The notes below the pieces were generated by a model. That model made no database searches. It worked only from the letters and a program-made list of their open reading frames with translations, and was not told where the DNA came from. This document shows, piece after piece, positions 7,755 to 31,246 of a stretch of DNA of 35,601 nucleotides (position 1 is the stretch's first letter; each line of letters begins with the position of its first letter). The stretch covers positions 1-35,601 of the forward strand of contig JAOAFQ010000133.1 in NCBI GenBank assembly GCA_026416195.1, given 5' to 3'. The position numbers and the translations under genes are program-made. This DNA comes from Candidatus Aminicenantota bacterium. Its GTDB lineage: Bacteria > Acidobacteriota > Aminicenantia > Aminicenantales > CALLJL01.

Positions 7755-8333
7755 ATGGATATCCACCGCCAAGTTAAATATGAGGAAGAATTAGATAAAA
7801 CCTTCCTCGAAGAAATTAAAGTTTTGTCTGGAGCTGAAGATTTAGATCGTTGCATACAATGTGGCACTTGCAGTTCTTCTTGCCCTATGTCAATTTATAT
7901 GGATTCCCCTCCTAGGAAAATTATTGCTCAGGTTAAAAACGGCTTTAAGGAAGAAGCCCTAAGAAGCTTTACCATCTGGCTTTGTTCCTCCTGCTATACT
8001 TGCCAAGTTCGCTGTCCAGCTAAGATTGAAATCACTGAGGTTATGTACGCTTTAAAAAGAAAGGCCATTGAGGAAAAAGTTTATCCCCAAAAATTCCCAA
8101 TCCCAGTGCTTGATAAAGAAATGACGAATCTAATTAAGAATTATGGCCGTAACTCTGAACTTTGGCTTATTCTCCGGCTCTATTTAAAATCACGTAATCC
8201 TATCGGATTACTAAAAATGGCCCCCCTTGGGCTCAAATTGATGAAAACTGGCCGGATGAGCCTCAAAAGAGAGGCGATTAAAGAAAGAAAGCAGCTGAAA
8301 GATCTATTAAAGTTTCTCAAGGAGGCTACCTAA
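7755..8333 (+). CDS. hdrC: HdrC-like iron-sulfur subunit (locus 1)
   Basis: This 192-residue protein has two complete 4Fe-4S motifs, C33-x2-C36-x2-C39-x3-C43 and C77-x2-C80-x2-C83-x3-C87, followed by a helical C-terminal part, as in HdrC of heterodisulfide-reductase complexes. HdrC carries electrons from the flavoprotein HdrA to HdrB in the cytoplasm. There is no membrane segment, so this is not the membrane-bound HdrE/DsrM type. A strong GGAGG precedes the ATG by 5 bases. It opens the locus 1 operon and its last base is the first base of hdrB, so the two are translationally coupled. A paralogue lies at 18668-19333. Confidence 0.92.
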   Translation: MDIHRQVKYEEELDKTFLEEIKVLSGAEDLDRCIQCGTCSSSCPMSIYMDSPPRKIIAQVKNGFKEEALRSFTIWLCSSCYTCQVRCPAKIEITEVMYALKRKAIEEKVYPQKFPIPVLDKEMTNLIKNYGRNSELWLILRLYLKSRNPIGLLKMAPLGLKLMKTGRMSLKREAIKERKQLKDLLKFLKEAT

Positions 8334-9217
8334 TGAGAGATTATGTTTATTATCCTGGTTGCTCCTTGAAGGGCAATTCTAAACATTATGAGGAATCAAT
8401 TCTTCCTGTTTTTAAAGAACTCGGTTTTCCGTTAGAGGAATTGGAAGATTGGAATTGCTGCGGCGCCACTGCTTATTTTTCGATTGACGATCTCATGGCT
8501 ACGGCCATTTGTGGCCGAAACTTGAGCCTAGCCGAAAAAAGACAACGAAACATCATGGCTCCTTGTGCCGGCTGTTATTTAACCCTAAAAAAGGCAAATA
8601 AAGTCCTTCGAGAGAATTCCGAGAAAGCCAGAAAAATAAATCAAGCCTTGGAAAAGGCGGGCTGTCCCTATCATGGAGGCATCGAAGTTAAACATCCGTT
8701 AGAAGTGCTTATCGAAGATATTGGTCTCGATCTAATCAAAGATAAGGTTAGATATAAGCTAAAAGGACTCAAAGTCGCCTGCTATTATGGCTGTCAGCTT
8801 GTCCGCCCTTTTACCGACTTTGACGATCCTGATTATCCGACTAGCCTTGATCAATTAATGGAAACCATTGGCGCTCAGCCAGTTCCTTATTCAGCCAAAA
8901 CTCGTTGCTGCGGGGGCTCTTTAACTGGGACAATTGAAGAAGTTGGGAAGAGGCTTAATTTCATTCTCCTTAAAGAAGCTAAACGTCGGGGAGCGGATGT
9001 CATCGTTACTCTTTGCCCCCTCTGTCAATTTAATCTCGAAATTTTTCAGGACAAAATGGCCAAAGATTATGGTGAAGATGTCACCATGCCCATCCTCTAT
9101 TTCAGTCAGCTGATGGGTTTGGCCTTTGGTCTGGCTAAAGAGGATTTGGGCTTTAATCGTTCAATTATTGATCTTAAGCCTTTGTGGCCAAAATTAACCA
9201 ATGGAGGCATCGTATGA
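8333..9217 (+). CDS. hdrB: HdrB-like subunit with two CCG domains (locus 1)
   Basis: This 294-residue protein contains two complete cysteine-rich CCG domains: C10, C42-C43, C78-x2-C81, and C154, C192-C193, C228-x2-C231. In methanogen HdrB these motifs bind two non-cubane 4Fe-4S clusters that cleave the CoM-S-S-CoB disulfide. All ligands are kept, so the clusters are probably assembled. Bacteria lack that heterodisulfide, so the true acceptor is unknown (another disulfide, or a relay to a partner enzyme). It is coupled to hdrC (1-base overlap) and to the HdrA N-half (4-base ATGA overlap). Its paralogue is at 19344-20213. Confidence 0.92.
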   Translation: MRDYVYYPGCSLKGNSKHYEESILPVFKELGFPLEELEDWNCCGATAYFSIDDLMATAICGRNLSLAEKRQRNIMAPCAGCYLTLKKANKVLRENSEKARKINQALEKAGCPYHGGIEVKHPLEVLIEDIGLDLIKDKVRYKLKGLKVACYYGCQLVRPFTDFDDPDYPTSLDQLMETIGAQPVPYSAKTRCCGGSLTGTIEEVGKRLNFILLKEAKRRGADVIVTLCPLCQFNLEIFQDKMAKDYGEDVTMPILYFSQLMGLAFGLAKEDLGFNRSIIDLKPLWPKLTNGGIV

Positions 9218-10065
9218 ATCAGAATGGTCAACCCAGAATCGGTGTTTTTATCTGCCATTGTGGAACCAACATTGCAGGCAAAGTAAATGTCAGCGAAGTG
9301 GTCGCGTTTGCGGCCGAGCTCGATAATGTTGTGGTCGCCCGTGAATATAAATTTATGTGCTCCGACCCTGGTCAAGAATTAATTCGACAGTGCATTCGAG
9401 AATATAATCTCAATCGGGTCGTAGTCGCCTCCTGTTCCCCCTTAATGCATGAACCGACTTTCCGAGTCGTTACTTCTGAAGGCGGTCTTAATCCTTTCTT
9501 TTTCCAAATGGCTAATATTCGAGAGCAGGTCTCTTGGGTAACTGAAGACCCGGAAAAAGCGACGAAAAAAGCCAAAGCCATGGTTGCCGCCGCTGTTCGG
9601 CGGGTAGCTTTACATGATCCATTAACTAAGAAGGAAGTACCGGTGAGACCTGAAGTTTTAATTGTCGGCGGGGGTATTGCCGGTATTCATGCAGCCTTAA
9701 CCTATGCTAATTCAGGAAAAAAAGTCTATTTAGTCGAAAAGGATGCCTCTATAGGTGGCCATATGTCCCATTTAGATAAAACCTTTCCTACCCTCGATTG
9801 TGCTGCCTGTATTCTAACGCCGAAAATGAGTGAGGTAGGTAAACATCCCAATATTGTTCTTTTGACTTGGAGTGAAATTGAGGAGGTTTCTGGTTACGTG
9901 GGTAATTTTAAAGTAAAAATAAGAAAAAAAGCTCGTTATGTGGATATCAGTAAATGTAATGGGTGCGGCGCTTGCTGGGAAAATTGTCCGACCACGATTA
10001 CTCCCTCAGAAAGAATTATCCGTAAAGGAAATATCATCATCAAGACCGTCGAAAAAGAAGCTTAA
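9214..10065 (+). CDS. hdrA: N-terminal half of HdrA (split HdrA, locus 1)
   Basis: This 283-residue protein stops where normal HdrA (about 650 residues) is less than half finished. It has the HdrA N-terminal cluster domain (C14, C16 in ICHCG, C49 in MCSDPGQ, C74 in ASCSPLMHE), the FAD-binding VGGGIAGIHAA (151-161), the HdrA signature TFPTLDCAACILTP, and one 4Fe-4S motif C248-x2-C251-x2-C254-x3-C258, then ends 25 residues later. The second Fd cluster, the CC motif, the FAD-closing segment and the C-terminal ferredoxin are all absent here but are found in the gene at 16591-18348. The start is the ATG at 9214 (GGAGG, ATGA overlap with hdrB), not the ATG at 9184. No frameshift: the missing part is not in the adjacent DNA. 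Confidence 0.9.
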   Translation: MNQNGQPRIGVFICHCGTNIAGKVNVSEVVAFAAELDNVVVAREYKFMCSDPGQELIRQCIREYNLNRVVVASCSPLMHEPTFRVVTSEGGLNPFFFQMANIREQVSWVTEDPEKATKKAKAMVAAAVRRVALHDPLTKKEVPVRPEVLIVGGGIAGIHAALTYANSGKKVYLVEKDASIGGHMSHLDKTFPTLDCAACILTPKMSEVGKHPNIVLLTWSEIEEVSGYVGNFKVKIRKKARYVDISKCNGCGACWENCPTTITPSERIIRKGNIIIKTVEKEA

Positions 10066-10066
10066 G

Positions 10067-10414
10067 ATGAAACTAAGGGAGATTAAAGAGCTTCTAGCCG
10101 CCGAAGTTATTTGGGGGGAAAATCATCTCGAGATTGAGATCGACACTGTTTGCGCTTCTGATCTAATGAGTGATGTCTTAGCTTTAGGCAAACCAGGAAT
10201 GCTTTTGATTACTGGATTATCTAATGTTCAAAGTGTCCGTACAGCCGATATTATCGAAGCTAAGGCCATCCTCTATGTTCGAGGGAAAAAGCCAGATCAA
10301 GAAGGCATCTCCCTAGCTAAAAAAAAGGGAATCCCTCTTTTAGCTACAAAATATCTCATGTATCAAGCCTGTGGTCTTCTTTATCAAAAAGGCTTAAAGA
10401 GTGTCCATGATTAG
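10067..10414 (+). CDS. DRTGG-domain protein 1
   Basis: This 115-residue protein looks like a stand-alone DRTGG domain, with VCASDLMSDVLAL, a GMLLITGLSNVQSVRTADI strand-turn-helix and a closing helix containing GIPLLATKYLMYQACGLLY. DRTGG domains are small modules of unclear biochemical function found next to CBS domains, phosphotransacetylases and, as free-standing genes, beside [FeFe]-hydrogenase operons of anaerobes. Here it begins one base after the HdrA half stops and is followed by an RsbT-like ATPase. A related gene lies at 12247-12588, either side of the H-cluster protein. Probably part of the regulatory module; ligand unknown. Confidence 0.75.
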   Translation: MKLREIKELLAAEVIWGENHLEIEIDTVCASDLMSDVLALGKPGMLLITGLSNVQSVRTADIIEAKAILYVRGKKPDQEGISLAKKKGIPLLATKYLMYQACGLLYQKGLKSVHD

Positions 10415-10422
10415 AGCTAAGG

Positions 10423-10887
10423 ATGGCTAAAAACCGAAGTGATGAGAGAGAAAATGGTCTTATTCAACAATTCTCGATTACGGGAGGAGATTTCTATCAT
10501 GCTGGTCATGTCTCGACCCAAATTAAAGAAATTTTAAAAGAATTAGGCATTGATCCAAATATTGTGAGAAGAGCAGCTATTGCCGCCTATGAAGCTGAAA
10601 TGAATGTAGTGATGTACGCGCAAAAGGGCCTCTTCACTCTTGAAGTCACTCCCCAAAAAATTCATTTCTTCGTGGAAGATGAAGGACAAGGAATTCCGGA
10701 TATTGAGCTGGCCATGCAAGAAGGCTACTCAACAGCCACTCCAGAAATGAGAGAGATGGGCTTTGGCGCCGGTATGGGTTTACCTAATATTAAGAAAAAC
10801 TCCGATATTTTTAAGATTACCTCCGAAGTAGGCAAAGGGACTGTCCTCGATATTATAATTTTTATCAATCAGGGGAAAAACCAATGA
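10423..10887 (+). CDS. RsbT/anti-sigma-like HATPase kinase
   Basis: This 154-residue protein is a single GHKL ATPase domain of the RsbW/RsbT/SpoIIAB kind: N-box EAEMNVVMYA, the Mg/ATP loop EDEGQGIPDIELA, and the MGFGAGMGLPNIKKNSD lid region. Such kinases phosphorylate Ser/Thr on partner proteins or bind sigma/anti-sigma factors. There is no dimerisation/His-acceptor domain, so it is not a classical histidine kinase. The ATG sits directly after AAGG with almost no spacer, so translation may depend on coupling to the DRTGG gene 8 bases upstream. It overlaps the H-cluster protein gene by 4 bases, suggesting the two products interact. The target is unknown. Confidence 0.82.
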   Translation: MAKNRSDERENGLIQQFSITGGDFYHAGHVSTQIKEILKELGIDPNIVRRAAIAAYEAEMNVVMYAQKGLFTLEVTPQKIHFFVEDEGQGIPDIELAMQEGYSTATPEMREMGFGAGMGLPNIKKNSDIFKITSEVGKGTVLDIIIFINQGKNQ

Positions 10888-12278
10888 GTCAGTATTACCA
10901 TTCAATCCGTTTTGATGAAACCAAATGTCAGGGTCGAATGCGCTGCCTTCGCGTTTGTCCCACGCAGGCCATTCGCGTTCGTCATGGCAAAGCTAGAATG
11001 ATCGAAGAAAGGTGTATCGATTGTGGTGAATGCATCACCGTATGTCCTAATGGAGCAATCATTCCTCTTACTGACCCTTTTGGCGAGCTGAGTCGCTTCC
11101 GCTATACCATCGCCGTACCCTCGCCCGCTCTCTATGCCCAGTTTGGTCGAGAAATTTTGCCTGATAAAATTTTGGCTGGTCTAAAAAAGCTTGGTTTTGA
11201 TGAGGCTATTGATCTAGCTTACACCTGTGGTGAAGTAAGTTTCGCTATCCAGGAATACCTCCGTAATTATAATGGTCCAAGGCCACTTATTTCTAATGCC
11301 TGTCCGACTATCGTCAGATTAATTCAAGTCAAATATCCTGAATTAATAGCCCACATCATTCCGATTGATACTCCTAGGGAAATTGCGGCTAGGGAGATAA
11401 AAAAGAAAAAAGCTAAGCAGCTTGAAATTCCTGAAAAAGAAATTGGAACCTTTTATCTAACTCCATGCCCCGTCAAAATGATTTCTATCAAACAACCAGC
11501 GGAAAAAGGTCGGTCTCACCTTGATGGCGCCCTTTCTATTGCTGATGTTTATGGACCCTTACTTTCAGCCATGGAAGGTTTGGAAGAAAGCGAAAATTCT
11601 CGCCGAGGTCTCGAAAGTATTTGTATTCTAGGAATAGGTTGGGCTATTGCTGGCGGGATGAGTCGGACTCTTCGCCTTCGCAACTCCTTGGCGGTCGCTG
11701 GACTGGCTGAAATCGTTAAGGTTTTCGATGATATAGAAAAAGGGAAAATAAGAAATATTGATTTTATTGAAGCTTATTCCTGCCCCCATGGTTGCGTGGG
11801 TGGTTCGCTTACGGTCGAAAACACTTATAGCTCCTATAATAAAATTGTTAAATTAATCGAAACCTTAGAATACGAAAAGGTTAAAGCTTGCCCTGATATC
11901 CGAGAAGTTCGACGACGATATGACCAAAAATATTACTTCATTGAAGGAAAACTTGAACCGAGACCACTAGCTCCTCTAGACGAAGATATCAGTCGGGCTA
12001 TTCAGAAGAAAAAACTGAAGGAATCCCTCTATGAACAACTTCCCCAGATTGATTGCGGCGCCTGTGGCTCGCCCTCCTGCCTTACCTTTGCTGAAGATGT
12101 GGTTCAAGGTGAAGCTAACCTGAATGATTGTGTCTTTCTTTGGCCCCAAAAAATAACCCAACTAGCTCAAGAAATAATTGATCTAGTCGAAAAAACCGGC
12201 TTTAAACCTAAAAAAAAGACCAATTTAAAAGAAGGGAAACAAGTTAATGCTTTTACAAGAAATCGTCAGACATCTTAA
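10884..12278 (+). CDS. [FeFe]-hydrogenase-like H-cluster protein, putative sensor
   Basis: Two N-terminal ferredoxin motifs come first: C15, C21, C25 (one usual Cys replaced) and C44-x2-C47-x2-C50-x3-C54. The H-cluster domain follows with SNACPT (C140), TPCPVK (C195) and EAYSCPHGCVGG (C300, C304). All four cysteines that ligate the H-cluster in catalytic enzymes are kept, but the first Cys of the usual TSCCP, which relays protons in catalytic enzymes, is Ala139. That change is reported for sensory (group C, HydS-type) enzymes. A C-terminal FeS motif has C391, C394, C399, C416. No PAS or output domain is present. Placed between an RsbT-like ATPase and DRTGG genes, it probably senses H2 or redox state rather than producing H2. 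Confidence 0.82.
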   Translation: MSQYYHSIRFDETKCQGRMRCLRVCPTQAIRVRHGKARMIEERCIDCGECITVCPNGAIIPLTDPFGELSRFRYTIAVPSPALYAQFGREILPDKILAGLKKLGFDEAIDLAYTCGEVSFAIQEYLRNYNGPRPLISNACPTIVRLIQVKYPELIAHIIPIDTPREIAAREIKKKKAKQLEIPEKEIGTFYLTPCPVKMISIKQPAEKGRSHLDGALSIADVYGPLLSAMEGLEESENSRRGLESICILGIGWAIAGGMSRTLRLRNSLAVAGLAEIVKVFDDIEKGKIRNIDFIEAYSCPHGCVGGSLTVENTYSSYNKIVKLIETLEYEKVKACPDIREVRRRYDQKYYFIEGKLEPRPLAPLDEDISRAIQKKKLKESLYEQLPQIDCGACGSPSCLTFAEDVVQGEANLNDCVFLWPQKITQLAQEIIDLVEKTGFKPKKKTNLKEGKQVNAFTRNRQTS

Positions 12279-12588
12279 CCTAAATATTTTTACAGCTAAC
12301 CTAAATCTTGAAGTTGAAGTGACGGGCGGATATACCTCTGATCTTCTGAGCGATGTCATCGCTAATGCTCAGGAAGGGAATCTCTGGATAACTCTTCAAG
12401 TCCATCCCAATGTGGTAGCTGTAGGCAAACTCAAGGATCTTGCTGGAATTATTTTGGTTAATAATCGTCAACCAGAGGAGGAAACCCGAAGAAAAGCCGA
12501 AGAAGAAAATTTGCCGCTTCTTGGAACCAAAGAAAATGCTTTTATTATTTCTGGAAAACTTTATGCTTTGCTGACCCAAAAGACTTAA
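12247..12588 (+). CDS. DRTGG-domain protein 2
   Basis: This 113-residue protein resembles the DRTGG protein at 10067: GGYTSDLLSDVIANAQEG corresponds to ASDLMSDVLALGKPG, and both end in a Leu-leu-gly/ala-thr-lys segment followed by a hydrophobic helix. It overlaps the end of the H-cluster protein gene by 32 bases in another frame and has AGAAGGGA about 9 bases before its ATG, inside that gene. The tight packing argues for coupled synthesis. The two DRTGG copies flank the H-cluster gene, so they may act as a pair, for example as a heterodimer; that is inference. Confidence 0.72.
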   Translation: MLLQEIVRHLNLNIFTANLNLEVEVTGGYTSDLLSDVIANAQEGNLWITLQVHPNVVAVGKLKDLAGIILVNNRQPEEETRRKAEEENLPLLGTKENAFIISGKLYALLTQKT

Positions 12589-12590
12589 TC

Positions 12591-13322
12591 ATGTTAAAAG
12601 TAGTTAGAGCTGACCTTCACATTCACACCTGCCTTTCTCCTTGTGCTGATCTTTCCATGTCGCCTCGAAGGATCGCCGCTCAAGCTAAGGAAAAATCAAT
12701 TGAGATTATTGGAATAAGTGATCACAATTCAGCTGAAAATGTTCCTGCTTTAATCGAAGCAGCTCGGCCGTATTCCATCAAGGTAATTCCTGGGATCGAA
12801 GTAACCACAAAAGAAGAGGTTCACCTTTTAGCTCTTTTCGCCAATCTCGAATTAGCTATTAACTTCCAAGAAGAAATTTATACCCATTTACCTGGAGAAA
12901 ATGACCCTAATCTTTTTGGTTGGCAGATTGTAGCTAATGAAAAAGATGAAGTCTTGGATTTTAATCCACGATTGCTCCTTGGCGCCACTACTTTAAGCCT
13001 TGAAGAAACAATTGATTTAATTCATGCTGGGGGCGGATTAGTTATCGCTAGTCATATTGACCGAGAAGGATTCAGCCTTCTTGGACAATTAGGCTTTATT
13101 CCTTTCGGTTTGCCTCTTGACGCATTAGAAATTTCGCCTCGACTTAATTTTGAAGAAGCTAAAAAAAGATTTAATTACGACTATCCCTTAGTTACCTTTT
13201 CTGATGCTCATAAATTAGAGGAAATTGGAACAGTCACCACTTCCCTTTTAGTAAAGGACCTTGTCTTTGAGGAGATTGCTTTAGCCATAAAAGGGCAAGC
13301 CGGAAGAAGAATTCTTAATTGA
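12591..13322 (+). CDS. PHP-domain metal-dependent phosphoesterase
   Basis: This 243-residue PHP protein keeps the metal-binding motifs in order: DLHIHTCLSPC (7-17), SDHNS (about 42-46), GIEVTT (about 66-71), ASHIDR (about 152-157) and SDAH (about 202-205). PHP enzymes use two or three metal ions to hydrolyse phosphoesters, for example in histidinol-phosphate phosphatases and 3',5'-nucleotide phosphatases. It begins 2 bases after DRTGG 2 and sits in the regulatory block. PHP genes are known beside hydrogenase operons in anaerobes, where they could dephosphorylate a partner or a small molecule; the substrate here is unknown. Confidence 0.85.
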   Translation: MLKVVRADLHIHTCLSPCADLSMSPRRIAAQAKEKSIEIIGISDHNSAENVPALIEAARPYSIKVIPGIEVTTKEEVHLLALFANLELAINFQEEIYTHLPGENDPNLFGWQIVANEKDEVLDFNPRLLLGATTLSLEETIDLIHAGGGLVIASHIDREGFSLLGQLGFIPFGLPLDALEISPRLNFEEAKKRFNYDYPLVTFSDAHKLEEIGTVTTSLLVKDLVFEEIALAIKGQAGRRILN

Positions 13323-13329
13323 GGTGAGC

Positions 13330-13887
13330 ATGGAAGATCTATCTCTTCACATTCTGGATATTGCTGAAAACTCAGTAGAAGCTGGCGCTACCTGGGTAAA
13401 AATTTCCCTAATCGAGGACCGAAAAACAGATCTTCTTCAGCTCGAAATCGAAGATAATGGTCGAGGGATGTCAGCCGAAGAATGCCGACAGGCGCTTAAT
13501 CCCTTTTATACTACCCGAAAAACCCGGCGTTTTGGTCTTGGCTTACCCTTCCTTCTGGAAGCCTGTCAAGCTGCCGGAGGTCAACTCTCCTTAGAATCAT
13601 CGCCTGGTCAAGGAACAAAGGTAATCGCTACTTTCCGCCTAAGCCACATTGACCTTAAGCCTCTGGGAGATATTCCCTTAACTATCATTGCTTTAATTGC
13701 CGGTCATCCTGAAATTGATTGGCAATATTATCATCGACGAAATGATTGGGAATTTAAATTTGATTCCAAGGAGTTTAAAGAAAATTATCCTGAAATCGCC
13801 ATTAATCATCCTATGGCCTTAAAAGCGATTCGGAATTTTATTAATAAAAATCTATCCCTAATAAGGAGGGAACATGATCGAGGCTAA
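13330..13887 (+). CDS. GHKL ATPase protein (histidine-kinase-like ATPase domain only)
   Basis: This 185-residue protein has an HATPase_c domain at its N-terminus: N-box DIAENSVEAGA, G1 EDNGRGM, the FYTTRKTRRFGLGLPFL lid and SSPGQGTKV. About 65 extra C-terminal residues resemble no domain I know. There is no His-containing dimerisation domain, so it is an ATPase or protein-serine kinase subunit rather than a full histidine kinase. The ATG at 13330 has GAGG 5 bases upstream; a GTG at 13324 is the alternative. It overlaps nuoE by 14 bases. Together with the RsbT-like protein the operon encodes two different GHKL proteins, consistent with a phospho-relay or partner-switch built around the H-cluster protein. 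Confidence 0.8.
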   Translation: MEDLSLHILDIAENSVEAGATWVKISLIEDRKTDLLQLEIEDNGRGMSAEECRQALNPFYTTRKTRRFGLGLPFLLEACQAAGGQLSLESSPGQGTKVIATFRLSHIDLKPLGDIPLTIIALIAGHPEIDWQYYHRRNDWEFKFDSKEFKENYPEIAINHPMALKAIRNFINKNLSLIRREHDRG

Positions 13888-14329
13888 AGTCTCTGATATC
13901 CTCAACAGATATGCTCGCGATGAGAGTTCCCTCATCGCTGTCCTCCAGGACCTCCAGGAGGAATATTCTTACTTGCCCCGGGAAGCCCTGGAACAAATAT
14001 CTAAGGAAATGAATGTCCCTTTGAGTCGGATTCTGAGTCTGGCGACTTTTTTTAAAGCTTTCAGCCTCAAACCCAAGGGAAAACATCCGATCAATGTCTG
14101 TCTGGGAACGGCTTGCCATGTTCGTGGGGCCCAGCTCATCCTCGAAAAATTTGAAAGAGAACTTGGAATTAAAACAGGTGAGACCACTCAAGATTTACTT
14201 TTCAGTCTTGAGGCTGTTCGCTGCCTTGGCTGCTGTGGACTTGCTCCTGTGGTTATGGTTGGCGAAGAGGTCCATGGAAAAGTTACCCAGACTAAAGTGC
14301 CGGCCATAATAAAAAAATATAAAAAATGA
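13874..14329 (+). CDS. nuoE: NuoE/HydC-like thioredoxin-fold 2Fe-2S subunit (locus 1)
   Basis: This 151-residue protein has the helical N-terminus of NuoE (LQEEYSYLPREALEQIS) and the thioredoxin-like 2Fe-2S domain with CLGTACHVRG (C-x4-C) and CLGCCGLAP. NuoE partners NuoF in NADH-oxidising modules of complex I, bifurcating hydrogenases (HydC) and NAD-linked formate dehydrogenases. An AGGAGGGAA precedes the ATG, inside the previous gene. It begins the second electron-transfer block of the operon (nuoE, HndB-like, nuoF, HydA-N/HdrA-C). A paralogue is at 30394-30867. Confidence 0.93.
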   Translation: MIEAKVSDILNRYARDESSLIAVLQDLQEEYSYLPREALEQISKEMNVPLSRILSLATFFKAFSLKPKGKHPINVCLGTACHVRGAQLILEKFERELGIKTGETTQDLLFSLEAVRCLGCCGLAPVVMVGEEVHGKVTQTKVPAIIKKYKK

Positions 14330-14346
14330 TAAAGAGGGAGGCCAGA

Positions 14347-14739
14347 ATGCCAAAATTAACTATAGAAGAACTTGAAAAATTAAGGGAAGAGGCCAGAAAA
14401 ACAACCTTTATCCGTGAACAGGGTCAGTTCAGAGCCAAAATTAATGTGCATATGGGTACATGTGGTCTAGCCGCTGGAGCTCGCCATATTCTTAATGCCT
14501 TTCTACAGGAAATAGAAAAGAGAGGTTTAACCGATGTTTTATTAACCACTTCTGGCTGTGCTGGACTTTGTAGCCGAGAACCAATGGCTACGATCGAAAT
14601 TGCTGGACAAGCCCCGGTTAAATATATCGACTTGACCGAAAAAAAAGTTGAGGAAATTTTTGAAAAGCATATTCAAGGCGGCGAAATTGTCACGGCCTAT
14701 GCTTTAGGCATCGGTAGTGAAAAAACTGATCTCTCTTAA
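14347..14739 (+). CDS. HndB-like thioredoxin-fold 2Fe-2S protein
   Basis: This protein of about 130 residues matches the small HndB-type subunit that sits between NuoE- and NuoF-type genes in NAD(P)-linked hydrogenase operons. It has an N-terminal helix (TIEELEKLREEARK), then a thioredoxin-like ferredoxin with HMGTCGLAAGAR and TTSGCAGLCSREP. One Cys in the first motif and two in the second are seen, so the cluster is not the plain four-Cys kind. The ATG at 14347 follows GGGAGG by 5 bases and is preferred to the ATG at 14326. The nuoEF operon at 30867-28456 lacks this gene, a clear difference between the two NADH modules. Confidence 0.85.
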   Translation: MPKLTIEELEKLREEARKTTFIREQGQFRAKINVHMGTCGLAAGARHILNAFLQEIEKRGLTDVLLTTSGCAGLCSREPMATIEIAGQAPVKYIDLTEKKVEEIFEKHIQGGEIVTAYALGIGSEKTDLS

Positions 14740-14750: not shown

Positions 14751-16577
14751 ATGGCGGTGGAAAAAGAAAAACTTTATCGGGTTCACTTGATGGTTTGTGC
14801 TGGAACGGGCTGTGTCTCTAACCATGCCTTTGAAATAAAAGAGGCTTTAGAAAAAGAAATTAAACGGCGAGGCCTGGAAAAGGAAGTTAAAGTAGTAACT
14901 ACTGGTTGTAATGGTTTTTGTGAAAGAGGGCCTCTCATGGTGGTTCAGCCCGGAAATATTTTTTATCAGATGTTAACAGTTAAAGACATTCCTTATTTAG
15001 TTGAAGAGCACCTCCTTAAAGGCCGACCAGTTAAAAAACTGATGTATCAGCCACCCGAAGAAAAAACTCCTGTTCCCGTTCTAAGTGAAATTAATTTTTT
15101 TAAAAAACAAGTTCTCGTGGCTTTACGTAATCGCGGTTTAATCGATCCCGAAAAGATTGAAGATTATATTGCCCGAGATGGCTACAAAGCTTTGGTTAAA
15201 GCTTTAACTCAAATGACTCCAGAAGAAATAATCCATGAAGTGACTATTTCCGGTCTCCGCGGGCGGGGTGGAGCTGGATTCCCCACAGGATTGAAATGGC
15301 AACTGGTTCGCAATGCCATTTCGCCTGATAATGAAAAATATCTCGTTTGTAACGGCGATGAGGGCGATCCTGGAGCTTTCATGGATCGGAGTATCCTTGA
15401 AGCCGATCCTCATTCAGTCATTGAGGGTATGTTGATTGGCGCCAAAGCTATTGGCGCCACTCAAGGATTTATTTATGTTCGAAATGAATATCCGTTGGCC
15501 GTGAAAAGAATTCTCATTGCCCTTGATCAAGCCCGATATTACGGACTCCTCGGTCATGACATTTTAGGCACAGGTTTTGATTTCGATATTCGCGTTGTTC
15601 GGGGAGCCGGCGCCTTTGTTTGTGGCGAAGAAACAGCTCTTTTGGCTTCAATTGAAGGTCGGTTGGGCGAACCTAGGCCTCGTCCACCCTATCCAGCTGA
15701 AAAAGGCTTATGGGGTAAGCCGACCTGCATTAATAATGTAGAAACATGGGCTAATATACCAGTCATCATTGACCGCGGGGGAAAATGGTTTGCTTCGATA
15801 GGCACAGCTACGAGCAAGGGGACAAAAGTTTTTTCTATTGTCGGCAAAATTAACAACACCGGATTGGTCGAGGTTCCTATGGGCATTACCCTTAGGGAAA
15901 TAATCTATGATATTGGCGGTGGCATTCCTGGTGGGAAAAAATTTAAAGCGGTTCAAACAGGAGGACCTTCCGGTGGTTGTATTCCGGCTGAATTAATTAA
16001 TCTGCCCATAGATTATGAAAGTTTAACGGCAGCTGGCTCAATGATGGGTTCAGGCGGCATGGTCGTTATGGACGAAGATACTTGCATGGTCGACGTCGCT
16101 CGTTATTTCCTTTCTTTTACCCAAGATGAGAGTTGCGGGAAATGCACTCCTTGCCGAGAGGGAACCAAGGCCATGCTCGATATTTTAACTCGAATAACTG
16201 AAGGAAAGGGAACCGAAGAAGATCTGGGGCTTCTTGAAGAATTAGCTGACACGATTAAAGAGGCCTCCCTCTGCGGGTTAGGGAAGACTGCCCCTAATCC
16301 AGTTTTAACCACCCTTCGCTACTTTCGGGATGAATATATTGCTCATATTCAGGATAAAAAGTGTCCGGCTCATGTTTGCCGTTCCTTAAATGTTTATAAA
16401 ATCGATCCTCAAATTTGCTTTGAAAAAGGACACGGTTGCGATGTTTGTCGGCGCAATTGCGCCACTGACGCCATCATTGGCTCTAAGGGCGAAGCCCATA
16501 AAATCGATCAAACTAAATGTATCAAATGCGGCGTTTGCTTTGATGTCTGCCATTTTGGCGCCGTAAAAGTTGAATAA
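14751..16577 (+). CDS. nuoF: NuoF/HydB-like NADH-binding FMN flavoprotein (locus 1)
   Basis: This 608-residue protein has the HydB layout: an N-terminal thioredoxin-like 2Fe-2S domain (CAGTGC, TTGCNGFCERGP), the NADH/FMN domain (GLRGRGGAGFPTGLKW, NGDEGDPGAFMDRS, RGAGAFVCGEETAL, INNVETWANIP), an SLBB domain, the NuoF 4Fe-4S motif SCGKCTPCREG, and a C-terminal two-cluster ferredoxin (CDVCRRNC and CIKCGVCFDVC). It should oxidise or reduce NAD(H) at FMN and pass electrons through its clusters. Next to it lies a HydA-N/HdrA-C fusion rather than a catalytic hydrogenase, so its partner appears to be Hdr. It follows the HndB-like gene by 11 bases. Confidence 0.95.
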   Translation: MAVEKEKLYRVHLMVCAGTGCVSNHAFEIKEALEKEIKRRGLEKEVKVVTTGCNGFCERGPLMVVQPGNIFYQMLTVKDIPYLVEEHLLKGRPVKKLMYQPPEEKTPVPVLSEINFFKKQVLVALRNRGLIDPEKIEDYIARDGYKALVKALTQMTPEEIIHEVTISGLRGRGGAGFPTGLKWQLVRNAISPDNEKYLVCNGDEGDPGAFMDRSILEADPHSVIEGMLIGAKAIGATQGFIYVRNEYPLAVKRILIALDQARYYGLLGHDILGTGFDFDIRVVRGAGAFVCGEETALLASIEGRLGEPRPRPPYPAEKGLWGKPTCINNVETWANIPVIIDRGGKWFASIGTATSKGTKVFSIVGKINNTGLVEVPMGITLREIIYDIGGGIPGGKKFKAVQTGGPSGGCIPAELINLPIDYESLTAAGSMMGSGGMVVMDEDTCMVDVARYFLSFTQDESCGKCTPCREGTKAMLDILTRITEGKGTEEDLGLLEELADTIKEASLCGLGKTAPNPVLTTLRYFRDEYIAHIQDKKCPAHVCRSLNVYKIDPQICFEKGHGCDVCRRNCATDAIIGSKGEAHKIDQTKCIKCGVCFDVCHFGAVKVE

Positions 16578-16590: not shown

Positions 16591-18348
16591 ATGATTACAG
16601 TTACTATAGATGGCAAAAAAATTCAGGTAGAAGAAGGGACAAATATTCTTAAAGCAGCGGAAAAACTAGATATAAAAATTCCAACTCTTTGCTATCATCC
16701 TCTGATTGAACCTTACGCTGCCTGCCGAGTCTGTCTGGTTGAGGTTACCTTAAGAGGCAAAACGGAATTAGTAACTGCTTGCAATACGAAGGTTCAAGAG
16801 GGGATGGACATTCAAACTACCTCTCCAAGGGCGGTGCAAAGTCGTCGTTTAAATGTGGAAATGCTTTTGGCTCGAGCCCCAGCAGCTGAACCATTGCAAA
16901 GACTAGCCCGAGAAATGGGCCTTGAAAAACCTCGTTTTCCTGTCCGTGATCCGCAGGAAAAATGTATTCTCTGCGGACTTTGTGTTCGAGCCTGTGAAGA
17001 AATAGTCGGCGCTTGCGCCATTAGTTTCGTTGATCGGGGTATAGAGCGCAAAGTTATGCCTCCTTTTGGGGAACCGTCAGTGGCTTGTATTGGCTGCACA
17101 GCTTGTGCTTACTTCTGTCCAACTGGGGCGATAACTTATGAAGATAAATATGGGCGTAAGGTCATTCATGATGAGCTTTATTTAGGGCCCTCAACCGCCA
17201 TTCGGGTGCCTATTCGTCAAGCCGTGCCCATGGTCCCTTTTATTGATGAGAAGGCCTGTATTCATTTCAAGACAGGACGATGTCAGCTGTGTGCCAAAGT
17301 TTGCGACCGCCAAGCTATTAATCATGAAATGGAAGATGAAGTTATCGAAGTTGAGGTTGGCTCAATTATTATGGCTACTGGCTTTAAACCCTTTGATGCC
17401 CGCCGAATTCCAGCATATGGCTACGGTCGATTGTCTAATGTTATCACCGCCCTTGAATTCGAGCATCTAGTCAATGCTTCTGGCCCAACTGGCGGCAAAA
17501 TTCTTCTGACCAATGGTGAAGAACCAAAATCAGTCGGAATTGTCCATTGTGTTGGTTCCAGAGATGAACACTACAATGAATACTGCTCCCGCGTCTGTTG
17601 CATGTATTCCCTCAAATTTGCCCATCTGATTAAAGAAAAAACTAAAGCCGAAATTTATGATTTTTACATTGACCTGCGCTGCTTTGGTAAAGGATATGAA
17701 GAATTTTATCACCGGCTCCTTGAGGAAGGCACTAAATTTATCCGTGGACGCGTTGCCGAAATCACCGATTTAGCTTTAACAAAAGAAGAGGAAGGGAAAT
17801 TAATCATCCGAGTTGAGGATACCTTGCTCGGGGTGGTCCGAAGAATTCCTGTGGACATGGTGATTCTGGCCACAGGCCTTGAACCCAGTGTTGATCATAA
17901 TCAAATCGCTAAAATTTTTAATATCTCTTGCAGCCAAGATATGTTTTTCTTAGAAAGGCATCCTAAATTAGCGCCCGTTTCCTCCTTTTCTGATGGAATC
18001 TTTCTAGCGGGTTGTTGTCAAGGGCCAAAAGACATTCCAGATAGCGTGGCTCAAGCTGGTGCGGCCGCGGCCGAGGCTTTAGCTTTAGCTGACAAAGGTG
18101 TTTTTGCTCTTGAACCAGTGACGGCTGAAATTAACGAAGAACTCTGCTCGGGTTGTCAAATATGCATTGGTCTTTGCCCCTTTAAGGCAATTACCTACGA
18201 TCGAGAAAAAGATATTTCTGTGGTTAATGATGCTCTTTGCAAAGGCTGTGGCACTTGTGTCGCGGCTTGTCCATCAGGGGCTGCTCAACAACGGCATTTC
18301 CGTGACCGACAAATTATGGCTGAGATCGAAGGCCTTTTGATTCTTTAA
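16591..18348 (+). CDS. Fusion of HydA/NuoG-type Fe-S N-terminus with the C-terminal half of HdrA
   Basis: Residues 1-95 form a 2Fe-2S domain (C34, C45, C48, C64) as at the start of HydA and NuoG. The next His/Cys 4Fe-4S site is missing (93-104 reads LARAPAAEPLQR). Two 4Fe-4S motifs follow (C125-C135, C166-C176). From about residue 201 the sequence is HdrA: IRQAVPMVPFIDE, cluster C223/C231/C234/C238, HCVGSRDE and YCSRVCC (C320, C332, C336, C337), FGKGYEEFY, DGIFLAGCCQGPKDIPDS, then a C-terminal two-cluster ferredoxin (C519-C529, C550-C560). No GxGxxG FAD motif is present; that lies in the HdrA half at 9214. The ATG at 16591 has AAGGAGG 8 bases upstream. No H-cluster domain exists. Confidence 0.9.
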   Translation: MITVTIDGKKIQVEEGTNILKAAEKLDIKIPTLCYHPLIEPYAACRVCLVEVTLRGKTELVTACNTKVQEGMDIQTTSPRAVQSRRLNVEMLLARAPAAEPLQRLAREMGLEKPRFPVRDPQEKCILCGLCVRACEEIVGACAISFVDRGIERKVMPPFGEPSVACIGCTACAYFCPTGAITYEDKYGRKVIHDELYLGPSTAIRVPIRQAVPMVPFIDEKACIHFKTGRCQLCAKVCDRQAINHEMEDEVIEVEVGSIIMATGFKPFDARRIPAYGYGRLSNVITALEFEHLVNASGPTGGKILLTNGEEPKSVGIVHCVGSRDEHYNEYCSRVCCMYSLKFAHLIKEKTKAEIYDFYIDLRCFGKGYEEFYHRLLEEGTKFIRGRVAEITDLALTKEEEGKLIIRVEDTLLGVVRRIPVDMVILATGLEPSVDHNQIAKIFNISCSQDMFFLERHPKLAPVSSFSDGIFLAGCCQGPKDIPDSVAQAGAAAAEALALADKGVFALEPVTAEINEELCSGCQICIGLCPFKAITYDREKDISVVNDALCKGCGTCVAACPSGAAQQRHFRDRQIMAEIEGLLIL

Positions 18349-18667: not shown

Positions 18668-19333
18668 ATGCCCCCAAAAGTAAGCCAAGAATGGGGTATT
18701 AAGAACAAAAAAGAAAGTGACCTTCGAGCCGATTTTCTTTATCAAGTGGCCAACATCCCTGGTGGAGAAAAAATAAAAAAATGTATCCAATGTGGCACCT
18801 GCACCGGCTCCTGTCCTGTAAGCTACACCATGGATATCATGCCCCGTGAAATCATCGCCCTTTTTCGAGCTGGATTAATTGAATCAATCCTCCATAGCCG
18901 GACCATTTGGATATGCGCTTCTTGTTACGCCTGTACGGTTCGTTGCCCTGCTGGCATCAAAGTTACAGATATCCTCTACGCTCTCAAAAGAATGGCCATG
19001 GAGAAGGGGCTCTTCCCCAAGAGATTTCCTATCTTCATTCTCTCTAAATCCTTTGTTTATTTAATTAATCTTTTCGGTCGAAGTTATGAGCCAGGACTGC
19101 TTATTCTTTATTATTTGAGGACCAACCCTTTAAAACTGTTTTCTCTTATGCCTCTTGCTTTCAAGCTATTTAGAAAGGGAAGATTAGCCCTTCTTCCCAA
19201 ATCAATTAAAAAAAGAAAGGAACTCTCGGCCATCTTAGCAGAGGCCGAAGTTATGGAGATGATCGTCCCTGAGCGGCCTTATCTGCAAGCTATCCCAAAA
19301 GGGCCAGTCCCTGGTTTTATCCGTCCATCCTGA
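18668..19333 (+). CDS. hdrC: HdrC-like iron-sulfur subunit (locus 2)
   Basis: This 221-residue paralogue of the protein at 7755 has two full 4Fe-4S motifs (C39-x2-C42-x2-C45-x3-C49 and C83-x2-C86-x2-C89-x3-C93). Shared stretches include KCIQCGTC, the second cluster region and DILYALKRMA versus EVMYALKRKA. It is about 30 residues longer, mainly through a Pro-rich C-terminal tail. Role as for HdrC: electron carrier between HdrA and HdrB. GGAGG lies 7 bases before the ATG and hdrB 2 follows by 10 bases. Confidence 0.92.
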   Translation: MPPKVSQEWGIKNKKESDLRADFLYQVANIPGGEKIKKCIQCGTCTGSCPVSYTMDIMPREIIALFRAGLIESILHSRTIWICASCYACTVRCPAGIKVTDILYALKRMAMEKGLFPKRFPIFILSKSFVYLINLFGRSYEPGLLILYYLRTNPLKLFSLMPLAFKLFRKGRLALLPKSIKKRKELSAILAEAEVMEMIVPERPYLQAIPKGPVPGFIRPS

Positions 19334-19343
19334 GGAGGCAAAA

Positions 19344-20213
19344 ATGACCTACATTTATTACCCCGGTTGTAGCTTGGAATCTTCAGCCAAGGCATATGAT
19401 TTATCGACTCGCTGGGTCTTTGAGAACCTGGGGATAACGCTAACTGAACTTGAAGATTGGAACTGTTGTGGCGCCACCATGTATATGTCCATAAAAGAAA
19501 CAATCTCCCTTGTTTTTTCGGCCCGAAATCTAGCTCTGGCTGAGAGACTCAACGGAGAGATTGTCGCTCCTTGTAGTTCCTGTTACACTATTCTTAATAA
19601 GACAAATAAATATTTGAAAGAAAATTTTATCCTTAGAGCCAAAGTTAACCAATCATTAAGACGCGACGGCCTCACTTATCATCTCCAAGTCAAAGTTCGT
19701 CATCCCCTTGATGTCTTAGTCAATGACATAGGAATAGACACGATCGCTTCTCGAGCCAAACGTTCTCTGACAGGACTCAAAATTGCCCAATACTATGGCT
19801 GCCAAATAGTGAGGCCTGAGGGTATTTTTGATGACCCGGAAAATCCAACAACGATGGATGAATTGTTTAGAGCTTTGGGCGCAACCAATGTCTATTTTCC
19901 GGTGAAGGTGCGCTGTTGCGGCGGAATGCTCATGACCACTTTCCCCGAGGTAGCCTTGAAGCTTAACAAAGATATCCTTGAATGTGCGGTGGCCAATAAC
20001 GCTGATTGTTTAGTAACCACCTGTCCTCTATGCCAGATCAACCTAGAAGCCTATCAGAAAAAAATCAACAAAAAGTTCAAAACCAATTTCAAGATACCTG
20101 TGCTATTTTTTACTCAGCTTCTTGCCTATACTTTAGGCTGCTCGCCTAAAGAGGCTGCTTTTGATCAAAACTTGGTTCCTATACCCGAAAAAATTCTTGG
20201 AGGAAGCCTATGA
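19344..20213 (+). CDS. hdrB: HdrB-like subunit with two CCG domains (locus 2)
   Basis: This 289-residue protein keeps both non-cubane cluster motifs: C9, C41-C42, C77-x2-C80 and C153, C191-C192, C227-x2-C230. It matches the locus 1 HdrB along its whole length (YYPGCSL, LEDWNCCGAT, YYGCQ, RCCGG, CPLCQ). An active disulfide-type or related centre is expected, with an unknown acceptor. It overlaps the large HdrA gene by the usual ATGA. Differences around the clusters, such as APCSSC against APCAGC, suggest the two sets may use different acceptors. Confidence 0.92.
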   Translation: MTYIYYPGCSLESSAKAYDLSTRWVFENLGITLTELEDWNCCGATMYMSIKETISLVFSARNLALAERLNGEIVAPCSSCYTILNKTNKYLKENFILRAKVNQSLRRDGLTYHLQVKVRHPLDVLVNDIGIDTIASRAKRSLTGLKIAQYYGCQIVRPEGIFDDPENPTTMDELFRALGATNVYFPVKVRCCGGMLMTTFPEVALKLNKDILECAVANNADCLVTTCPLCQINLEAYQKKINKKFKTNFKIPVLFFTQLLAYTLGCSPKEAAFDQNLVPIPEKILGGSL

Positions 20214-23200
20214 AAAATGATAATGAGGCGAAAGTTGGCGTCTATATCTGTCATTGTGGTTTGAATATCGCTCAGACAGTTGATGTTTATGAAGTAACCA
20301 ATTTTGCTTCCCAGCTTGAGCGGGTCGTTGTGGCCCGGGAATATAAGTTTATGTGCTCTGACCCCGGACAAGAACTTATCATTAAAGATATCAAAGAGAT
20401 AGGACTTAACCGGGTGGTCGTTGCTTCCTGTTCTCCTTTGATGCATGAGAAAACATTTCGGCGAGCCTGTGAAGCCGCCCATTTGAACGGTTTTCTCTTT
20501 CAGATGGCTAACATTCGAGAACAGTGTTCTTGGGTTCATCAAGATAAAAGAGCAGCGACCGAAAAAGCTAAAAGTTTAGTTAAAGCAGCTGTAAAGAGAG
20601 TCATTCGCCAAAATCCTCTCAAGCCGGCGAAAATAAAAATTAATCCGGCGACCCTAGTCGTCGGTGGCGGCATTGCTGGCATTCAGGCTGCTTTGGAAAT
20701 CGCTGATTCAGGTAATAAGGTTTACTTAGTCGAGAAAGATTCCACCATCGGCGGCAAAATGGCTAAGTTTGATAAAACTTTTCCCACCTTAGACTGTGCT
20801 GCTTGTATTCTTACACCTAAGATGGTCTCAGTCGCCCAGCACGAAAATATCGAACTCCTCACTCTGAGTGAAATCATTGATGTCCAAGGCTGTATAGGCG
20901 ATTTTACAGTTAAAGTTAAAAAAAAGGCCAGGTATGTTACTGAAAAATGCACTTCCTGTGGAGAATGCGCTAGAGCTTGCCCCATCCAAGTTCCCAACCC
21001 CTTTGAGGAGAATCTATCTCCGAGATCAGCTATTTATAAAACCTTTCCTCAGGCTATTCCTAACACCTATCTTATCGATAAGGAAGAACGTCCCCCTTGC
21101 CGCGAGACCTGTCCTATTGGCCAAGAAGCTGCCGGATATATTGCCCTTGTGGCTAAAGGAAAGTTTGCTGAGGCAGCTCGCCTGATCCGCCAGCAAAACC
21201 CTTTGCCTGAAATCTGCAGCCGAGTCTGTTACCATCCCTGTGAATCAGAGTGCAATCGAAGGTTGGTCGATGAACCCATAGCCATTAAAAATATCAAACG
21301 ATTTGTGATGGACTGGGAACTCAAACAAAAGGGCTCTTTGGAACCACCCAAGATTGAAATAAAAAGGGAAGAGAAAATTGCCATTATTGGTTCTGGTCCC
21401 TCGGGCTTGGCTTGCGCTCATGACCTTGCCTTAAAAGGATATGCCCCAACCATTTTTGAAAAACTAGAAGTGGTTGGAGGTATGCTCGCCGTTGGGATTC
21501 CAAAATACCGATTGCCTCGGGAAATTCTCAACAGAGAAATAGATTACATAAAAAAGATGGGGGTAACCATCAAAACGAATCTAGCCCTGGGGAAAGATTT
21601 CTCAATTGAGGACCTCTTCAATCAAGGATTCAAGGCTGTTTATATTGCCACAGGCGCTCACAAAAGCCTGAAAATGGATATTCCAGGAGAAGACTTGGCT
21701 GGCGTTTGGCATGGGGTTGATTTTCTTAGAAATGTCAATCTAGGTAAACCTCAAGCTGTTGGCGAGAGAGTGGCGGTCGTTGGAGGTGGCAACACGGCAA
21801 TAGATGCAGCCCGGACAGCCTTACGCCTAGGAGCAAAAGAGGTGACTATCCTCTATCGGCGAACTCGAAAAGAGATGCCAGCTGAAGAAGCAGAAATTCG
21901 AGCCGCTGAGGAAGAAGGAGTTAAGATCAAATATCTTATAGCCCCCATTGAAGTCCTAGGGAAAGAAGGGAAGATCTGCGGCGTTAGGTGCATTCGCATG
22001 GAGCTTGGGGAGCCCGATTCTAGTGGACGGCGCAGGCCAGTACCGGTGAAAGGAAGCGAGCACGACCTAGCTTTTGACACTCTGCTTATTGCCGTCAGTC
22101 AGGCCCCTGAAATTGATTTTATCAGCGATAAAACCCCTTTCAAAACGACCAGATGGGGAACGCTCGAGGTCAACCCAGAAACTTTGGAAACTAATATCAA
22201 AGGTGTTTTCGCTGGCGGTGATGTAGTCCTGGGTCCAGCTACGGTAATTGCCGCTATTAGTGATGGCAAGCGCGCGGCTGAAGCCATTGATAAATACCTC
22301 AATGGTGAACCTCTGGTCGATTTTAAAACCCACCGGGCGAAAAAGTTACCTCGGCGAGACGAAAACGGTCGACCTCATCGATTTGCTCCTACCTTCAAAG
22401 AAACACCTAAGAAATCCCGGATAAAAATGAAAGAAATAAGCTTAGAAAGTCGACTCAAGACTTTTGAAGAAGTAGAGCTGGGGTTTAGCCAAGAAGAAGC
22501 GATAAAAGAAGCGGAGCGTTGCTTGAATTGCGGTCTTTGCGTTGAATGCAAGGAATGCTTGCGGGTCTGCGAAGCCAAGGCCATCGATCACTTTATGAAA
22601 GATGAGATTAAGGAAATAAAAGTTGGGCAGATCCTGATTGCCACAGGCTACACTACTTTTAATTCTAAAGAGCTCAGCCTTTATGGCTATGGGCAATTTG
22701 ACAATGTCTATACAAGCTTGGAGTTTGAGAGATTACTTAATTCAACTGGTCCAACTCAGGGAAGAATAGTCTTGAAAAATGGCCAGGAGCCAAAAGCTAT
22801 CGGCATTATCCACTGCGTTGGTTCTCGGGACGAAAAGCATCACCCTTACTGCTCGCGGGTCTGTTGTATGTATGCTCTGAAGTTTGCCCACTTGATAAAA
22901 GACAGGACTGACGCTGAAGTTTATCAATTTTATATTGATATGAGAGCGTTCGGCAAGGGGTATGAAGAGTTCTATTCCCGAATTTTAGAAGAGGGAGTTA
23001 ATGTCATTAGAGGCAAAGTAGCCGAAGTGGTTCGGGCTAGCTGGTCTAAAAAAGATGAAGAAACGCTCCTCATTCGGTGTGAGGATACCCTGATTAAAAA
23101 ATATCGAGAAATTCCGGTCGATATGGTTGTCCTCTGCAATGCTATCGAGCCCCAAGCTGATGCCGGCGAGATTCAGCGACTTTTTTCTATTAGCCGCAGC

Positions 23201-23614
23201 CCCGACGGTTTCTTTCTGGAAAGACACCCTAAGCTCGATCCCACCTCGACCGCTACTGACGGCATTTATATTGCAGGCTGCTGTCAAGGACCTAAAGATA
23301 TTCCCGATACTGTGGCCCAAGCTAGCTCGGCAGCGGCCCGCATCCTGTCTTATATTTCGCGGGGAGAAGTAGAAATTGAGCCTATTCAGGCCTATATTGA
23401 CCCGCAACTTTGCTCTGGCTGCCGTCTCTGCAACGGCCTCTGCCCTTATGGAGCCATCAAGTTCTTTGAGGATGAAGGAATCTCCAAAGTGTCTGAGGCC
23501 CTCTGTAAAGGCTGTGGAACCTGTGTAGCCGCTTGTCCCTCAGGAGCCTCCCAACAGAACCATTTCCGCGATGATCAAATCTTGGCAGAAATAGAAGGCT
23601 TGCTTTCCCTTTAA
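20210..23614 (+). CDS. hdrA: HdrA with an internal GltD/NfnB-like NAD(P)H module (locus 2)
   Basis: This 1134-residue protein is an HdrA interrupted by a second flavoprotein. Residues 1-290 are HdrA: C14, C16, C49, C74; FAD motif VVGGGIAGIQAA at 150-161; TFPTLDCAACILTP; first cluster C247-C257; then PQAIPNTYLID. Residues about 291-770 are GltD/NfnB-like: CRETCPIG and CSRVCYHPCESEC clusters, FAD motif IIGSGPSGLACA (392-403), NADPH motif VVGGGNTAIDAA (523-534) and ELGEPDSSGRRRP. HdrA resumes at the Cys cluster 771-787 and runs through HCVGSRDE, YCSRVCC, FGKGYEEFY and two C-terminal clusters. Removing the insert leaves about 654 residues, normal HdrA size. Two FAD sites and direct NAD(P)H use are expected. 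Confidence 0.93.
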   Translation: MKNDNEAKVGVYICHCGLNIAQTVDVYEVTNFASQLERVVVAREYKFMCSDPGQELIIKDIKEIGLNRVVVASCSPLMHEKTFRRACEAAHLNGFLFQMANIREQCSWVHQDKRAATEKAKSLVKAAVKRVIRQNPLKPAKIKINPATLVVGGGIAGIQAALEIADSGNKVYLVEKDSTIGGKMAKFDKTFPTLDCAACILTPKMVSVAQHENIELLTLSEIIDVQGCIGDFTVKVKKKARYVTEKCTSCGECARACPIQVPNPFEENLSPRSAIYKTFPQAIPNTYLIDKEERPPCRETCPIGQEAAGYIALVAKGKFAEAARLIRQQNPLPEICSRVCYHPCESECNRRLVDEPIAIKNIKRFVMDWELKQKGSLEPPKIEIKREEKIAIIGSGPSGLACAHDLALKGYAPTIFEKLEVVGGMLAVGIPKYRLPREILNREIDYIKKMGVTIKTNLALGKDFSIEDLFNQGFKAVYIATGAHKSLKMDIPGEDLAGVWHGVDFLRNVNLGKPQAVGERVAVVGGGNTAIDAARTALRLGAKEVTILYRRTRKEMPAEEAEIRAAEEEGVKIKYLIAPIEVLGKEGKICGVRCIRMELGEPDSSGRRRPVPVKGSEHDLAFDTLLIAVSQAPEIDFISDKTPFKTTRWGTLEVNPETLETNIKGVFAGGDVVLGPATVIAAISDGKRAAEAIDKYLNGEPLVDFKTHRAKKLPRRDENGRPHRFAPTFKETPKKSRIKMKEISLESRLKTFEEVELGFSQEEAIKEAERCLNCGLCVECKECLRVCEAKAIDHFMKDEIKEIKVGQILIATGYTTFNSKELSLYGYGQFDNVYTSLEFERLLNSTGPTQGRIVLKNGQEPKAIGIIHCVGSRDEKHHPYCSRVCCMYALKFAHLIKDRTDAEVYQFYIDMRAFGKGYEEFYSRILEEGVNVIRGKVAEVVRASWSKKDEETLLIRCEDTLIKKYREIPVDMVVLCNAIEPQADAGEIQRLFSISRSPDGFFLERHPKLDPTSTATDGIYIAGCCQGPKDIPDTVAQASSAAARILSYISRGEVEIEPIQAYIDPQLCSGCRLCNGLCPYGAIKFFEDEGISKVSEALCKGCGTCVAACPSGASQQNHFRDDQILAEIEGLLSL

Positions 23615-31144: not shown

Positions 31145-31246
31145 AAACCTTCCTAAAAGATAAAAATTAGAATAAGGAATAGAATTTGGATATAATATAA
31201 AACTCATTCTCATGCGCCTTGATTTTTACTTAATAAGGAGGCGTTG

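Follow-up and report, generated by a model that had tools for sequence, protein, structure and literature searches.

How can one protein begin as an iron-sulfur subunit of a bifurcating hydrogenase and end as the back half of HdrA, and what would such a protein do? Both parts are found in a single reading frame of a Candidatus Aminicenantota bacterium, and it is this frame, hereafter the fusion, that we study here. The whole stretch of DNA analysed, 35,601 nucleotides long, is referred to as the window, and its features are collected in Table 1.

Table 1. Features of the window in order of position, with the matches or motifs by which each was assigned.
Feature	Position	Strand	Basis and remarks
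hdrC, 192 aa, two CxxCxxCxxxC motifs	7755..8333	+	TIGR03290 E 6e-22; all 8 cluster Cys present
hdrB, 294 aa, two CCG motifs for non-cubane clusters	8333..9217	+	TIGR03288 E 8e-64; CCG at residues 42, 192
hdrA_N, truncated HdrA: N-terminal Fe-S domain, FAD-binding GxGxxG, first half of inserted ferredoxin domain	9184..10065	+	5odc match
DRTGG protein and HATPase (anti-sigma-like) protein	9938..10887	+	Pfam; retained in many fusion loci
Fe_hyd_lg_C and FeS (PF04060) protein, degenerate H-cluster motifs	10884..12278	+	Pfam; motifs read from sequence
Second DRTGG protein, PHP phosphoesterase-like protein, second HATPase	12247..13887	+	HATPase by Pfam; DRTGG, PHP by similarity; co-conserved
nuoE / BfuC	13874..14329	+	PF01257 E 3e-51
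Thioredoxin-like [2Fe-2S]-type protein, HndB-like	14326..14739	+	PF01257 weak
nuoF / BfuB, N-terminal [2Fe-2S], C-terminal 2x[4Fe-4S]	14751..16577	+	7t2r_B match
BfuA::HdrA_C fusion, 585 aa	16591..18348	+	Domain, profile and PDB matches
Second Hdr operon hdrC2-hdrB2-hdrA::gltD (type III HdrA)	18668..23614	+	Sits between fusion and mvhDGA
mvhD	31244..31681	+	PF02662 E 2e-56; 92% to mvhD of same-genus relative G001
mvhG, [NiFe]-hydrogenase small subunit	31605..32648	+	PF01058; 90% to G001
mvhA, [NiFe]-hydrogenase large subunit, RICGVC and DPCHAC nickel motifs	32645..34108	+	PF00374; 92% to G001

The reading frame itself is intact. It opens with ATG 13 bp past nuoF, behind a ribosome-binding site of its own (AAGGAGG), and contains no internal stop. 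Pfam places Fer2_4 on residues 1-78 (E 6e-20), along with 4Fe-4S domains, and residues 2-187 align with positions 1-211 of the NCBIfam profile FeFe_hydrog_A6 (E 3e-41). The remainder belongs to HdrA: residues 197-581 align with positions 264-639 of NCBIfam HdrA2 (E 3e-135), and residues 198-583 with positions 276-653 of the HdrA structure 8rvu (E 5e-119). The layout is that of a HydA/HoxU-like Fe-S segment at 1-187, after which the chain corresponds to HdrA from residue ~268 of that protein up to its C-terminus. The initial annotation, which had read the first ~200 residues as the accessory Fe-S segment of HydA and the rest as the back half of HdrA, is borne out on both counts, with one refinement: the His-Cys3 [4Fe-4S] subdomain known from HydA/NuoG is missing from the segment, whose closest solved chain is BfuA of the electron-bifurcating tungsten aldehyde oxidoreductase (9mqx_A; 1.6 A, 186 columns), with which residues 2-207 align. 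The H-cluster domain (PF02906) is absent from the fusion by Pfam. To say that the HdrA half takes its place, as had been proposed, is fair by position, because the gene order nuoE-fd-nuoF-BfuA is what we take to be that of tetrameric Hnd-type hydrogenases.

We find ligands for a [2Fe-2S] cluster (C34/45/48/64) and two [4Fe-4S] clusters (C125/128/131/135 and C166/169/172/176) in the BfuA part, and the motif of the inserted HdrA ferredoxin domain (C223/231/234/238) and the C-terminal ferredoxin (C519-C560) in the HdrA part. By position counted in the alignment, E291 and K342 correspond to HdrA E356 and K409, which lie at FAD N5 and stabilise FAD (PMC12054007). Both residues and all of the cluster cysteines are invariant across 39 aligned fusions. 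The C-x7-C spacing in the second ferredoxin motif was considered as a mark of the fusion and rejected, intact bacterial HdrA having it as well. An AlphaFold2 model built with 39 homologues has an N-lobe that resembles BfuA chains and a C-lobe that resembles HdrA; at its pLDDT of 78.3 and pTM of 0.44 the relative placement of the lobes is unreliable, and distances between clusters are not given.

Where, then, is the rest of HdrA? A truncated hdrA in the same operon had been pointed out in the initial annotation, and its residues 16-274 indeed align with residues 3-261 of the HdrA in 5odc (E 4e-99), so that only a few residues of HdrA, about 262-267, are covered by neither piece. Since one piece ends at 261 and the other resumes at ~268, the break separates the first cluster motif of the inserted ferredoxin domain from the second, and HdrA is encoded here by two genes, 9184-10065 and 16591-18348, instead of one contiguous polypeptide. 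The FAD-binding GxGxxG is absent from the fusion and located in the separate HdrA_N; the flavin site would thus be shared by two chains. On this point the earlier proposal of a NuoEF module wired straight into an HdrA flavin is not supported. Pfam finds no GltD domain in either piece. Cys209 of HdrA_N aligns, as counted from the alignment, with Cys197 of M. thermolithotrophicus HdrA. At that same position three Chloroflexi HdrA_N genes (L066 1627, L068 1879, L069 6394) carry an in-frame TGA (DCST*ILGPKM), beyond which the frame stays open for 85 residues; by analogy with the X at this site in the archaeal HdrA 9sfi, the TGA likely encodes selenocysteine.

The NADH module adjoining the fusion is of the NuoEF/BfuBC type, as had been recognised. 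BfuB aligns over its full length with subunit B of NiFe-HydABCSL (7t2r_B, E 9e-262) and has the complete domain set of FMN/51K, SLBB, NADH_4Fe-4S and 4Fe-4S (PF01512, PF10531, PF10589, PF12837/PF00037). In the same alignment it possesses the ligands B1-B5 (Cys 16/21/53/57, 462/465/468/508, 538/543 and 556-600), which mark the bifurcating members of the Bfu family according to Schut 2022 (PMC9304861), where Bfu Types 1-4 are defined. The defining domains of the other two subunits are present as well, namely the thioredoxin-like [2Fe-2S] domain in BfuC (PF01257) and the 2Fe-2S and 4Fe-4S domains in BfuA (PF13510, PF00037). A C-x6-C spacing in the BfuB tail was rejected as fusion-specific, being found in only a subset. 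In one Aminicenantes genome (L040 6891) the BfuB frame is ~1,029 aa long, with an extra C-terminal part, and groups in the tree with BfuB frames of ~1,040 aa.

Other genes of the window complete the picture. The first DRTGG and HATPase genes we take to be regulatory, as in [FeFe]-hydrogenase operons, and the Fe-hydrogenase C-domain protein, co-conserved in the operon with the DRTGG, PHP and HATPase genes, is probably regulatory too. MvhA keeps all four nickel cysteines. The layout downstream of the fusion is exceptional: between it and mvhDGA come the second Hdr operon and, on the opposite strand, a NuoEFG-NfnAB operon. The mvhDGA genes are thus displaced by 12.9 kb here, but they are orthologues of those that adjoin the fusion in most relatives. 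In the second Hdr operon GltD is inserted at the same ferredoxin-domain site of HdrA (20210-23614); bacterial type III hdrA genes with this insertion also occur in three other loci (L090, L102, L106), again with hdrCB and mvhDGA as flanks. The minus-strand operon (23662-30867; nuoE, nuoF, a molybdopterin NuoG/FdhA-like gene, NfnA-like and NfnB-like genes) possibly encodes a formate or transhydrogenase Bfu complex.

Searching for proteins that combine a NuoG-type 2Fe-2S domain with the HdrA C-half, as the initial annotation had suggested, we find the fusion in 20 of 59 genomes of the same order and, by a cross-phylum scan, in more than 25 further loci from more than 8 phyla, the named ones being Neomarinimicrobiota, Planctomycetota, Ignavibacteria, Calditrichota, Zixibacteria, Coatesbacteria, Fischerbacteria and Chloroflexi. 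By our own count some 24 of 396 sampled phylum genomes contain it, if a longer form of ~1,085 aa is included. Frames of ~1,080-1,120 aa that start with BfuA and the HdrA C-half are seen in L028 (G023), G118:C16, G361:C18, G187:C15 and G421:C142, and the L028 chain continues into a second HdrA-like half.

The neighbourhood of the fusion is also conserved. Where the sequence extends 4 kb or more upstream, which is so in 26 loci, nuoF and the truncated hdrA accompany the fusion in 24, usually together with nuoE, hdrB and hdrC. Immediately 3' of the fusion lies mvhD in 37 of 46 loci, usually followed by mvhG-mvhA; the same-genus relative has fusion-mvhD-mvhG-mvhA in one contiguous run, 90-92% identical to the copies in the window. 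The idea that the module operates without MvhD is contradicted by these loci. Control loci with an intact hdrA, from the same scan, read hdrC-hdrB-hdrA-mvhD-mvhG-mvhA with no nuoF between. Fusion loci without adjacent mvhDGA do exist (L037/L056, L053, L063), so that H2 would not be the partner everywhere (L053, L056, L063). These belong to a second fusion paralogue that is more distant, at 50-55% identity, and in L063 the fusion directly follows HdrA_N, with no nuoEF. DsrC as an obligate disulfide partner was rejected: it occurs in 15 of the 20 genomes with the fusion and in 34 of the 39 without, and shows no association.

In terms of gene order and domain content, we find in these deep-branching anaerobic bacteria a BfuABC (HydABC-type) operon lying inside the hdrA of an otherwise canonical hdrC-hdrB-hdrA-mvhD-mvhG-mvhA operon. 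Intact hdrA loci and GltD-inserted hdrA loci share their flanks with the fusion loci, and the simplest reading is insertion of the Bfu operon into hdrA. The trees lend no support to the fusion having arisen only once. On that of the HdrA C-half the architecture labels are scattered: 9 changes of the BfuA label are required, and well-supported branches force every one of them. The labels are partly scattered on the BfuB tree too, which has two main clades and requires 8 changes, 5 of them forced; one of its rows, labelled 'other', probably comes from a contig that stops short of the fusion. For HdrA_N the tree is weak, with 10 changes of which 2 are forced. This scatter makes it possible that the insertion was repeated, or that modules were swapped between operons.

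What might the assembled complex do? With the break lying between the cluster motifs of the inserted ferredoxin domain, HdrA would be made as two chains, HdrA_N and BfuA-HdrA_C, and these would re-form one HdrA with a bifurcating FAD. Every fusion locus has BfuA joined to HdrA_C, and four loci (L046, L048, L054, L058) have HdrA_N fused to NuoE in addition, so that the halves of HdrA are covalently linked to different Bfu subunits, which would tie them into one complex. We consider it reasonably probable, at roughly 0.6, that the fusion serves as the subunit that holds together a Bfu-Hdr-Mvh complex, in which the low-potential branch of the re-formed HdrA feeds the BfuBC core. One branch from the HdrA flavin would pass via HdrC to HdrB and reduce some disulfide-type acceptor; the low-potential branch would lead, not to free ferredoxin, but along the Fe-S chain of BfuA into the FMN/Fe-S core of BfuBC, which would exchange electrons with NAD(H) and ferredoxin. 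Run the other way, NADH and reduced ferredoxin (and thiol) would drive the formation of H2. The initial annotation had wired the NuoEF module into HdrA without MvhD; the module is joined at the inserted ferredoxin domain, which is the low-potential exit in solved HdrA (PMC9012536, PMC12350162), and not at the MvhD entry. From this position, and from the retained FAD, nickel and Bfu sites, we infer a hub of H2, the HdrB disulfide and NAD(H)/ferredoxin, whose structural wiring and direction are what we would predict from sequence.

The same genes can be read differently. If, in line with the initial annotation, NADH oxidised at BfuB were the mid-potential donor to the HdrA FAD via BfuA, with one electron going from HdrA to HdrB and one to ferredoxin, then MvhDGA would be optional or a separate hydrogenase. 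The second fusion group without adjoining mvhDGA and the displaced mvhDGA of the window are in keeping with such a scheme, and comparable proposals exist for GltD-inserted HdrA (PMC12054007) and NfnB-inserted ANME-1 HdrA (PMC9012536). We regard it as unlikely, however, given that mvhD directly follows most fusions, that free ferredoxin would have to leave elsewhere when its exit is occupied by the fusion, and that BfuB has the full bifurcating cluster set, unlike a plain NADH dehydrogenase. NADH could also enter HdrA as donor while free ferredoxin is still made at the Bfu core.

Domain fusions can also be simple tethers, and one might suppose that BfuABC and HdrABC-Mvh are two co-expressed enzymes, electrons from BfuA never reaching the HdrA FAD. 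We find this quite improbable: hdrA itself is split, so that the BfuA chain is needed for HdrA to form at all; the parts are joined covalently in two independent ways, the second of them in four loci; and the cluster ligands of the inserted ferredoxin domain are all invariant. Almost no weight, finally, attaches to an artefact of assembly or annotation or to a decaying gene. The window consists of a single complete contig (35.6 kb), and the named cross-phylum loci come almost entirely from metagenome-assembled genomes, but the same architecture and gene order recur in independent assemblies from many phyla, which excludes the single-genome artefact that had been raised as an objection. Moreover, the fusion is 92% identical to that of a same-genus relative with a dN/dS of ~0.02, a value that is approximate, the synonymous distance being near saturation, and that indicates strong purifying selection.

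Our favoured Bfu-Hdr-Mvh complex resembles several known systems. The class II benzoyl-CoA reductase BamBCDEFGHI (Bam-Bfu) had been named as a precedent, and fairly so: by the account of Schut 2022 (PMC9304861), it combines BfuABC-type subunits with an HdrA-type module, and two bifurcation sites in series have been proposed for it. There the HdrA-type module and a BfuA homologue sit within an eight-subunit benzoyl-CoA reductase with a tungstopterin site, whereas here HdrA is split, fused to BfuA and accompanied by the Mvh hydrogenase; no benzoyl-CoA reductase gene is seen at the fusion locus. The methanogen MvhADG-HdrABC (5odc) and bacterial group 3c share the hdrC-hdrB-hdrA-mvhD-mvhG-mvhA content and order, the flavin-based electron-bifurcation residues and the nickel site, but have neither an HdrA of two chains nor BfuABC inserted at the ferredoxin exit. 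In type III HdrA an NAD(P)H-linked module, GltD (PMC12054007) or the NfnB of ANME-1 HdrA9-11 (PMC9012536), interrupts the same inserted ferredoxin domain, and both insertions are described in archaea; there one domain is added within one polypeptide, whereas here a whole operon splits the gene. Type 1 and Type 2 Bfu enzymes (FeFe-HydABC, Stn/Nfn-Bfu, Wor-Bfu; PMC10482914, PMC9304861) keep the BfuBC core. The BfuA of the fusion has a replacement domain as in Type 1, lacks His-Cys3 as does the aldehyde oxidoreductase Bfu 9mqx_A, and goes with extra subunits as in Type 2, but its replacement domain is half of another bifurcating flavoprotein. The text consulted of Schut 2022 names no Hdr-Bfu besides Bam (PMC9304861). 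In the literature open without subscription we found no report of a BfuA-HdrA fusion or an operon-split HdrA, in keeping with the initial annotation, which did not know the fusion from described complexes. Genome papers label related gene sets simply as MvhADG/HdrABC, as in an Ignavibacteria genome (PMC7509429), which we cite as an example of the labelling and not of the fusion.

It is tempting to go one step further, with somewhat less than even confidence, and to propose a four-substrate hub (H2, NADH, ferredoxin, disulfide) in which Bfu FMN/Fe-S and HdrA FAD bifurcation work in series, created by insertion of a whole operon mid-gene at the ferredoxin-exit domain, into which NAD(P)H modules, whether GltD/NfnB or BfuABC, would have been plugged repeatedly. 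If this is true, four kinds of electron-bifurcating site being known, two of them are covalently joined at the low-potential exit port. For the Bam complex the question has been asked whether two bifurcation steps can operate in series (PMC9304861), and water-soluble, hydrogenase-linked Bfu-Hdr complexes would be a simpler test bed for it than Bam. The fusion also presents a case in which an operon has divided a gene and selection has maintained the two halves, in many phyla without cultured members that live in anoxic sediments and aquifers.
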